From an uncultured Opitutia bacterium (GTDB lineage Bacteria > Verrucomicrobiota > Verrucomicrobiia > Opitutales > UBA953), in the NCBI GenBank assembly GCA_903919185.1, contig CAIXHF010000008.1, positions 1 to 32,495 of the forward strand: a DNA stretch of 32,495 nt, given 5' to 3'. The translations under genes and the position numbers were made by a program. This document shows, piece after piece, positions 20,930-28,097 of this stretch (the stretch's first letter is position 1; every line of letters begins with the position of its first letter). Below the pieces are notes generated by a model that worked only from the letters and a program-made list of their open reading frames with translations, did not search any database and was not told where the DNA came from.

Positions 20930-21138
20930 GTAGGGGCAGCACCGCGTGCTGCCCTAGCGTATGAATCGGTGATCGGTGATGGGGATAGGGGATGCCAAAA
21001 AGGGGATAGGGGATGGGGGATAGAGCATTGGGAATAATGGATCCGGATGTTGGCGCTTTTGCTTCCCAACCCCTATCCCCCATCCGCTAACCCCTAACCC
21101 CAATTTCCCCTATCCCCTAGGCTGCCCAGCGGGCCGCC
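20930..21138. repeat. Imperfect palindromic repeat region upstream of metK with G-tracts
   Basis: This stretch of the 345-nt gap before metK is organised symmetrically. At its left edge GGGCAGCAC (20934-20942) pairs perfectly with GTGCTGCCC (20946-20954) around loop CGC, preceded by GGTAGG and followed by TAG; this is the same hairpin type as in the elements around thuA. Next come G-runs on the plus strand (20981-21019), then C-runs of mirrored sequence (21068-21117). The right edge is a second three-base-loop hairpin, 21120-21138 (8-bp stem, one mismatch, loop AGC). No coding signal is seen. Confidence 0.7.
20981..21019 (+). repeat. ATAGGGG heptad repeats with G-quadruplex potential
   Basis: Five runs of at least four G occur in 39 nt (20981-20984, 20988-20991, 21002-21005, 21009-21012, 21015-21019), with loops of 3, 10, 3 and 2 nt. 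The unit GGGGATA is shared with other intergenic sites in the window. Confidence 0.6.
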
Positions 21139-26427: not shown

Positions 26428-26572
26428 GGAGGGAAGGGGATAGGGGATAGGCGGGGAGGCGGGGAGGCCTTATGGGGTGAGGGGATTGAAGACGAAACTT
26501 AGGAGGATGGAAGAGCAAGATGAGGGCAGGGAAGAGGGGGACGAGAGGCAGTGCAAAGGTGGAAAGGTCTGT
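26428..26572. other. Purine-rich leader region upstream of the oxidoreductase gene
   Basis: The plus strand is strongly purine-rich (pyrimidine-rich in the sense of the minus-strand gene). It includes GGGGATAGGGGATAG at 26436-26450 immediately before the start codon, and GGCGGGGAGGCGGGGAGG at 26450-26467. No Shine-Dalgarno precedes the gene. GTGCAAAGGT at 26551-26560 is mirrored by ACCTTTGCAC at 26851-26860 on the far side of the repeat element, so the symmetry extends beyond the element arms. Confidence 0.5.
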
Positions 26573-26814
26573 TGGTTGGCTAGAGTATGGTTGGCTTGGG
26601 GTTGTGACGCCGCTTTGCGGCGGGCATCAATGGGTAGGGTCAGCACTGCGTGCTGACCTAGGGCGGCCGTTTTACGGCCGCGGGTAGGGGCAAGGCTTTG
26701 CCTCGCACTCCTAGCTTGGAGGGCGCGGCGAAGCCACGCCCCTTCCTAGAAACATATGCGGCCACAGGCCGCAGCCATTCCCCTGGCCAACCATACTCTA
26801 GCCAACCAGCCCCC
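26573..26814. repeat. MITE-like hairpin-mosaic element, copy 1 (upstream of thuA)
   Basis: Bounded by inverted arms: left core 26573-26601 (28 of 29 nt as in copy 2) and right 26776-26814 (38 of 39 nt complementary to the copy 2 left arm). Each arm holds the 10-mer GGTTGGCTAG twice, 15 nt apart, with small changes. Inside are hairpins, nearly all with 3-nt loops: 26608-26622 (CGCCGC, loop TTT), 26638-26658 (GGTCAGCAC, loop TGC), 26663-26681 (GCGGCCGT, loop TTT), 26688-26708 (GGGCAAGGC, loop TTT, two mismatches), 26721-26741 (loop GAA, one mismatch) and 26757-26773 (TGCGGCC, loop ACA). No ORF or target-site duplication is evident. Confidence 0.85.
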
Positions 26815-26983
26815 TTCTTACTTTCTTCCCCCTTCATTTCACACCTTCACACCTTTGCACCGGCCATCGGCCGATTTGCACTTTCACACTGCCCATCTCC
26901 CGCCTCTCCCCTTGCCATCCCTCGGCCCCGCTCTATCCCCATACCCATACCCATACCCCTATCCCCTATCCCCACCCGTCCCC
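26815..26983. other. Pyrimidine-rich leader of thuA with CCCATA and CCCCTAT repeats
   Basis: The stretch is almost entirely pyrimidine on the plus strand. It contains another three-base-loop hairpin at 26861-26873 (CGGCC, loop ATC) flanked by two TTTGCAC copies, three CCCATA units at 26938-26955 and CCCCTAT units at 26956-26973, directly before the thuA ATG. Eight C-runs of at least three C between 26937 and 26983 give G-quadruplex potential on the minus strand. No promoter was identified. Confidence 0.5.
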
Positions 26984-27766
26984 ATGCGTTCCTTCTTCGC
27001 CCTGCTTTTTGTCTCTCTCGTTGCTTCGGCCGCTGAGCCGACCCGTGCCTTAGTCTATTCCCGAACGGCGGGCTTCCGTCACGGCGACTCCATCCCGCTG
27101 GGCAATAAGATGCTCGCTGCTCAATACAAGGCGGCTGGCCTCGAGACCGATTTTTCCGAAGACCCCGCGGTTTTCACGCCCGAGAACTTGGCCCGCTACC
27201 GTTCGGTGGCCTTCATGAGCACCACGGGCGACGTGATGACCCCGGCACTGGCGAAGGACGCCACGCCTGAACAGAAGGCCGCGGCGGCCAAGCAAGGCGA
27301 CGCTGGCCGAGAAGCTTTTCAGAAGTGGATGGAGAATGGTGGTTCGTTTATCGGCGTCCATGCCGCCACCGATGCCGGCAATGACGTCCTCAAGAAGTGG
27401 CCTTGGTATGCCAAGATGGTGGGTGGTCTTTTCGCCGGTCACCCCGCCCAGCAGGTAGCGGTACTCCACGTCATCGATAAGGACACCTTGGCAACCAAGC
27501 ACCTCCCGGCTGATTGGAAGCGCAAGGACGAATGGTATAACTTCAAGAACCTCGAAACCGAGAACCACGTGCTTCTCGTGATCGACGAAACCACTTACAA
27601 GGGCGGCAACACTAAGCCCGGTGAGACCCACCCGATGTCCTGGACTAAGTCTGTGGGCAAGGGCCGGATGTTCTACACCGCCCTCGGTCACACCAAGGAA
27701 TCCTTCGCCGAGCCGGAGTTCATTCAGCACGTCAACGGCGGCCTCCTCTGGACGTTGGGGAAGTAA
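26984..27766 (+). CDS. Secreted ThuA-like domain protein
   Basis: A 260-residue protein with a signal peptide (MRSFFALLFVSLVASAAE) followed by one ThuA-like domain, a class I glutamine-amidotransferase-like fold. Conserved parts are ALVYSRTAGFRHG, the GSFIGVHAATDA segment (the position of the nucleophile elbow, without a Cys), DEWYNF and HPMSWTKSVGKGRMFYTALGHT. ThuA-like proteins are linked to sugar metabolism, and in Verrucomicrobiota many are exported and sit near Gfo/Idh/MocA oxidoreductases, as here. The enzymatic role is unknown. The ATG at 26984 is chosen because it gives the signal peptide; the frame is open further upstream but that part is repeat sequence. Repeat elements lie on both sides. 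Confidence 0.9.
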   Translation: MRSFFALLFVSLVASAAEPTRALVYSRTAGFRHGDSIPLGNKMLAAQYKAAGLETDFSEDPAVFTPENLARYRSVAFMSTTGDVMTPALAKDATPEQKAAAAKQGDAGREAFQKWMENGGSFIGVHAATDAGNDVLKKWPWYAKMVGGLFAGHPAQQVAVLHVIDKDTLATKHLPADWKRKDEWYNFKNLETENHVLLVIDETTYKGGNTKPGETHPMSWTKSVGKGRMFYTALGHTKESFAEPEFIQHVNGGLLWTLGK

Positions 27767-27773
27767 GTGGGTA

Positions 27774-28097
27774 GGGGGCTGGTTGGCTAGAGTATGGTTG
27801 GCTAGGGGAATGAGGGCAGGCCGAAAAAAGGGGGACCGGGGACCGGAATGAGAGCCAAAGGGAGACCGGAACGATGGTAGGGTCAGCACTGCGTGCTGAC
27901 CTAGCTGCATCTAAAGGTAGGGGCGTGGCTTCGCCGCGCCCTCCACGCTAGGAGGGCAAGGCAAAGCCTTGCCCCTACCCGCGGTCGCAAAGCGACCGCC
28001 CCAGGTCGGCACGCAGTGCCGACCCTACCTAGAAATATGTGCGGCCACAGGCCGCAGCCATTCCCCTAGCCAACCATAATCTAGCCAACCAGCCCCC
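27774..28097. repeat. MITE-like hairpin-mosaic element, copy 2 (downstream of thuA)
   Basis: Inverted arms of 39 nt (27774-27812 and 28059-28097) match at 38 of 39 positions. GGTTGGCTAG occurs at 27781-27790 and 27796-27805, and mirrored copies in the right arm. The interior holds three-base-loop hairpins: 27881-27901 (same stem as in copy 1, loop TGC), 27921-27941 (loop TTC), 27954-27974 (GGGCAAGGC, loop AAA, perfect), 27981-27999 (GCGGTCGC, loop AAA, perfect), 28004-28024 (GGTCGGCAC, loop GCA, perfect, reversed relative to the first) and 28040-28056 (TGCGGCC, loop ACA). A GGACCGG-rich purine stretch fills 27830-27872. It begins 7 nt after the thuA stop and ends 11 nt before the next stop. 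No ORF. Confidence 0.88.

Follow-up and report, generated by a model that had tools for sequence, protein, structure and literature searches.

Hairpin elements on both sides of thuA in an uncultured Opitutia bacterium are probably nested composites of GTAG-type REP sequences

What kind of sequence are the two hairpin-rich elements that enclose the thuA gene of an uncultured Opitutia bacterium? Both lie in a window of 32,495 nucleotides, the whole stretch of DNA analyzed here, from a draft genome (G000; 2.29 Mb, 223 contigs, 89% complete) of a genus whose named members are freshwater Opitutae. Element 1 (26573–26814) is located in the spacer between a divergently transcribed oxidoreductase gene and thuA, and element 2 (27774–28097) where thuA and an acyltransferase gene converge; both are intergenic, with ORF calls being approximate throughout. 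A preliminary description of the window had reported these coordinates together with inverted arms, short hairpins with 3-nt loops, no transposase in the window and no visible target duplication, all of which were found again. The arms of element 2 (27774–27812 and 28059–28097) match at 38 of 39 positions, those of element 1 (26573–26601 and 26780–26808) are 93% complementary over a matching stretch of 29 nt, and nine perfect hairpins, all with a 3-nt loop and with a stem of 6–9 bp, are distributed over the two elements.

From left to right, element 1 begins with a 29-nt left arm (26573–26601, plus strand) made of two repeats of about 15 nt, TGGTTGGCTAGAGTA and TGGTTGGCTTGGGG, and an adjoining hairpin of 6 bp with a 3-nt loop (26608–26622, unstranded like the other hairpins outside the REPs). 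These are followed by a sequence designated REP-A (26633–26661, plus strand), with GTAG head, 9-bp stem GGTCAGCAC, loop TGC and tail CTAG, a hairpin that flanks RAYT genes in sister genomes. Directly attached is the REP-B unit, comprising hairpin H (26662–26682, GCGGCCGT TTT ACGGCCGC), a CAAGG-type REP-B with GTAG head (26683–26711, plus strand) and, separated from it by a 6-nt linker (26712–26717), an inverted GTGG-type REP-B (26718–26746, minus strand). A 7-bp hairpin, TGCGGCC ACA GGCCGCA (26757–26773), also present in element 2, and the right arm (26776–26814, minus strand) complete the element. In element 2, the 39-nt left arm (27774–27812, plus strand) precedes a TCAG-type REP-A (27876–27904, plus strand) that is 100% identical to 26633–26661, a GTGG-type REP-B (27916–27944, plus strand), the variable linker ACGCTA (27945–27950), an inverted CAAGG-type REP-B (27951–27979, minus strand), hairpin H (27980–28000, GCGGTCGC AAA GCGACCGC), a TCGG-type REP-A as inverted partner of 27876–27904 (28003–28029, minus strand), the second copy of the 7-bp hairpin (28040–28056) and the right arm (28059–28097, minus strand). 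The interiors had been taken for different, reshuffled mosaics but turned out to be two oppositely oriented copies of a single composite core (90% complementary over 115 nt), and the right ends share a direct repeat of 112 nt. Each element folds as a whole into one nested structure (z = -14.8 and -12.2 versus shuffles). A known structured RNA was rejected as the identity of the elements, as all Rfam matches were sub-threshold and to microRNA models only. Outside the arms, at 26539–26571 and 26838–26890, lies a (GTGCAAAGG)n module around a CGGCCGATGGCCG hairpin, an intergenic module likewise seen in spacers of the relatives G030, G031 and G017. Moreover, both ends of the divergent spacer (26428–26451 and 26934–26983) bear gene leaders of (CCCCTAT)n-like runs in inverted orientation, and C-rich leaders of this kind are also present in relatives.

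The following genome-wide statements are based on whole-genome searches and on 530 kb of G000 contigs, partly picked for having matches. Two elements do bracket thuA, as initially described, but they are not confined to this gene: with element 2 as query, BLAST gave 131 matches in G000, distributed over dozens of contigs in unrelated contexts. These copies rule out a simple local duplication, and a comparison of the thuA spacers of relatives likewise did not show the region to be one. The pattern GTAGGG-NNN-GCAC-NN-CGTGC-NNN-CC has 110 exact matches in G000. Within the genus, 23 of 25 genomes contain it; all 13 genomes outside the genus lack it, and its reversed control gave no match. A second motif, GTAGGGGC..GGC.T.GCC..GCCCTCC, was detected 23 times in G000 and in 31 of 55 genus genomes. 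On 12 G000 contigs, partly chosen for matches, 63 hairpins with a stem of at least 8 bp and a 3-nt loop were counted versus 3 in Markov-shuffled sequence. Most palindromes are preceded by GGTAG, and a GTAG head before a short palindrome is the definition of GTAG-type REPs (PMC2817692, PMC3733652). The arrays are mainly extragenic (63 of 77 are centered outside approximately called ORFs of at least 150 aa). Furthermore, the stem columns of REP-A covary, with 87% paired among 54 distinct sequences compared to at most 77% in shuffles, so that the palindrome is kept by compensatory change, as is characteristic of GTAG-type REPs. Arrays and folds also contain two inverted REPs able to form one hairpin, the arrangement defining REPINs and BIMEs. 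Judged by their sequence, the hairpins of both elements are GTAG-type REPs, with GTAG head and perfect 3-nt-loop palindrome, and the likeness to BIME/REP mosaics noticed at the outset was well founded.

Sister species possess the corresponding RAYT genes, which encode Y1/HUH transposases of about 145 aa with HxH and Y..NPxRA motifs (the Pfam Y1_Tnp match is weak) and are flanked by these REPs in inverted arrangement. REP-A hairpins identical to those of the window are found on both sides of the RAYT genes of G002, G016 and G063, where they form GGTCAGCACTGCGTGCTGACC/GGTCGGCACTGCGTGCCGACC doublets on either side; both hairpins and doublets also occur at the G007 gene. The REP-B unit (27915–28000) shares 90% identity with the RAYT flank of G057 (over 68 nt) and 82% with that of G058 (over 73 nt). 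Among 43 RAYTs, all 65 pairs with less than 40% divergence share an identical REP, compared to 2% of the more distant pairs (Mantel r 0.69, a value that 0 of 10000 permutations reached). Given the GTAG head and the cognate RAYT flanks within the genus, the hairpin cargo can be assigned to REP sequences with cognate transposases, and the initial impression that no known family matches does not hold, since the RAYT genes of sister genomes have REPs of the A and B types at their flanks. The pairing also bears on the proposal that local duplication, slippage and gene conversion alone, without any transposition, have produced the elements. Such an origin would accommodate the 112-nt direct repeat, and the low-complexity flanking modules and the core swaps between the thuA sites look like conversion. 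However, neither the specific RAYT-REP pairing nor the spread over unrelated contigs would be expected from it, and it is considered very unlikely as the sole explanation; the two thuA sites have nevertheless probably undergone some conversion with each other.

In the draft assemblies of G000, G030, G031 and G017 (80–91% complete), no RAYT was found at E ≤ 1e-8, and the commonest REP-A subtype of G000, bearing a TTGG stem, does not adjoin any of the RAYTs found. Hence, G000 shows no cognate RAYT in the same genome at this threshold and 89% completeness, and a REPtron is not claimed for it. REPtrons may be absent from REP-bearing strains (PMC3733652), and the missing RAYT is therefore no bar to REP membership, which is kept. 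Because none was detected in an assembly of this completeness, the REPs of G000 are probably orphaned or moved in trans. Larger Y1 transposases of 304–334 aa (L067 on G000 contig C159, L077, L078, L147–L149) were rejected as REP mobilizers because their flanks differ: the flanking palindrome is GGGGTCAGGCC in L067 and L077 and a related one, GGGGTCAGACCGCTT, in L078, while no hairpin is within range of the transposase genes of L147–L149. The 304-aa genes at L067:858–1772 and L077:3783–4697 have at their flanks a palindrome unlike the REPs (AAAAGGGGTCAGGCCGTTAG...) that fits the TIRtron motif GGGGWSAS (PMC3733652).

REPs as such are known building blocks; unusual here is that different kinds of them are nested in strict order genome-wide. 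REPs of different RAYT families follow one polarity, arm> A> B> <B <A <arm. Among the orientation switches in the 58 multi-unit arrays of G000, 51 are convergent and 2 divergent, whereas a mean of 40 and a minimum of 25 divergent switches were obtained in 10000 random trials; this test counts arrays as independent, and with composite cores sharing ancestry the counts are less independent than assumed. Going from outer to inner neighbors, A-B was counted 43 times versus 7 for B-A, and arm-A 14 times versus 4 for A-arm. The order is replicated in G031 (19 convergent versus 2 divergent switches; A-B 19 versus B-A 1). With few exceptions, the inner doublet reads GTGG> linker <CAAGG and is in most cases followed by hairpin H. 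The linker (27945–27950 and homologous sites) measures 6–9 nt and differs in sequence in almost every copy, with 22 distinct sequences among 27.

Features of this layout have precedents. Like the GTAG-type REPs and REPtrons described previously (Nunvar 2010, PMC2817692; Di Nocera 2013, PMC3733652), the arrays show a GTAG head, extragenic palindromes and inverted (HH) doublets, and RAYT genes with cognate REP flanks have diversified together with them. Opitutus terrae, also belonging to the Verrucomicrobia, is reported to be highly enriched in GTAG repeats, GTAG REPs are known to form heterodimers, groups and clusters (Di Nocera, PMC3733652), and BIMEs show alternating REP orientations (Nunvar, PMC2817692). 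Unlike in these systems, REPs of several RAYT families are nested here in one polarity. The REPINs of Pseudomonas fluorescens SBW25 (Bertels and Rainey 2011, PMC3116915) are comparable as REP doublets that form a long hairpin and act as a mobile unit, and for five regions of this species insertion of REPINs into REPINs has been suggested (PMC3116915); however, REPIN clusters in SBW25 are restricted to these five and lack obvious organization, whereas the ordered nested composite dominates in two genomes here. Hybrid BIMEs of Stenotrophomonas (PMC2817692) also combine REPs of two different RAYTs, but as modules repeated head-to-tail instead of nested concentrically. In Anabaena variabilis, GTAG-15 dimers have inserted into long palindromes (PMC3733652), similar to the REP dimers within inverted non-REP arms here, with the difference that those palindromes are intact while the arms of G000 are usually single. 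As REPIN-into-REPIN insertion has been suggested (PMC3116915) and hybrid BIMEs have been described (PMC2817692), the kind of arrangement is already known. As far as a limited literature search shows, in which no description of nested BIMEs was found, concentric order as the dominant genome-wide layout has not been described.

The arms behave differently from the layers they enclose. Allowing up to 3 mismatches, 38 copies were found in G000, bearing out the expectation that they recur elsewhere in the genome, 13 in G031, 12 in G033, 7 in G030, 6 in G057 and at most one in each of the others; the arms are hence mainly confined to one subclade, while the REPs are genus-wide. Positioned outside both REP layers, the arm module is 34–39 nt long and has neither a GTAG nor a hairpin. 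For the 30 arms whose full context is available, a REP lies within 200 nt inward of 26 and outward of 3, but inward-facing pairs within 450 nt were seen at about three sites and most arms are single. At one site, a 63-nt arm module between the same two REPs is present in G000 and absent from G031 and from G017; as G017 also lacks it, gain in the G000 lineage is likelier than loss. At a second site, G031 lacks a composite of about 320 nt that G000 has, while keeping the arm and the outer REP on either side of it, and at the 3' site of thuA, G031 has the left arm alone and G030 a partial right arm alone. The arms are consequently a separate module and not the ends of a mobile unit, being mostly single and gained or lost independently of the REP composite, and their role as transposon ends was rejected on the same grounds. 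A MITE-like transposon with the 39-nt arms as terminal inverted repeats and the hairpins as cargo would suit the inverted arms at both ends of both window copies and their inward orientation toward REPs in 26 of 30 cases. With about three closely paired sites in the contigs examined for 38 arms in G000, solitary arms at thuA, arm and composite coming and going separately, different phylogenetic ranges of arms and REPs, and neither a transposase nor a target duplication tied to the arms, it is nevertheless highly improbable; terminal repeats that bound a mobile unit with target duplication, as in MITEs, were not found. The idea of mobile units with conserved arms collecting hairpins is not supported in its original form either, with arms mostly unpaired, present without the composite and gained without REP change.

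G030, G031, G017 and G064 have the same succession of oxidoreductase, thuA and acyltransferase genes as G000, and many further genomes share the first two, but the spacers differ. No array is present upstream of thuA in G064, G014, G040, G041, G049, G060 and G002. The G030 core upstream of thuA is nearly identical to the downstream core of G000, and its downstream core resembles the upstream one of G000; the cores at the thuA flanks are thus inverted and exchanged between the two genomes, and the shared hairpin H differs by one compensatory pair change. Array content turns over between genomes whose neighboring genes are about 90% identical. Presence/absence cases at orthologous sites could be deletions instead of insertions. 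The core is inverted in element 1 relative to element 2 and, on each side of thuA, in G000 relative to G030. This might suggest a switch, with thuA expression changing whenever inverted arms or REPs recombine and thereby flip the core. However, no recombinase is nearby and the near-symmetric cores have no identified promoter, making such a switch highly improbable.

Selection for host functions, such as bidirectional terminators, 3'-end protectors or gyrase/IHF sites, with mobility being secondary, would be in accordance with the very stable folds, with published roles of REPs (PMC2817692, PMC3733652), with the position of element 2 between convergent genes and with arrays being somewhat commoner in convergent spacers (16 of 51 versus 39 of 179 of all spacers). 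On the other hand, element 1 lies between divergent genes, orthologous upstream spacers of several relatives are devoid of arrays, content turns over between genomes with neighboring genes of about 90% identity, and stem covariation would be equally expected from transposase recognition. We regard primarily host-functional structures as unlikely.

Consequently favored, and highly probable in our view, are composite REPINs/BIMEs that became nested stepwise through RAYT activity and recombination. Layer A consists of two REPs in inverted orientation, their type being that found beside one RAYT clade, and encloses layer B, the inverted pair GTGG> <CAAGG with hairpin H, of the type flanking another clade, with the 34–39-nt arm module outside both. 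A Y1/HUH RAYT would recognize GTAG and hairpin on single-stranded DNA and move or copy the REP doublet into intergenic sites, later REPINs would land inside or beside earlier ones, and the cores would be flipped and exchanged as the numerous inverted copies undergo homologous recombination with one another. For related enzymes, GTAG, stem-loop and a C|T cut site are needed in vitro (PMC8266576). These Group 3 TnpA-REP systems of Stenotrophomonas and Marinomonas likewise have short REPs with a perfect stem, with a 3-nt loop in Stenotrophomonas; GTAG and loop matter, and single-stranded DNA is cut at C|T beside the hairpin (PMC8266576). Their biochemistry is known; for the RAYTs considered here, we infer catalysis, as well as the inside-out order of insertion and the part played by recombination. 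A more tentative, rather doubtful extension is that, in this genus, the apex or linker of a REPIN serves as insertion target for REPINs of other RAYT families, concentric order then being a transposition target rule. If so, arrays would grow inside out, their layers would be a dated record of successive RAYT families, and nesting would not be a product of decay or recombination. The spread of REPs has so far been inferred instead of watched. With over a dozen RAYT/REP pairs that differ in their hairpins, and with close genomes showing presence/absence at the same spacer, the genus makes testable the specificity of RAYTs for their own hairpin and the use of older REPINs as targets of REPINs; the nesting order of the arrays may record their insertion history.

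At two further loci, L320 (G031:C28) and L321 (G031:C33), G031 has whole extra genes in intergenic positions that hold only repeats or a short spacer in G000. In the window itself, a solitary GCAG-type REP, GTAGGGGCAGCACCGCGTGCTGCCC, is located outside elements 1 and 2 (20930–20954, plus strand), directly after a 1041-aa ORF with a CxxCH heme-binding motif.
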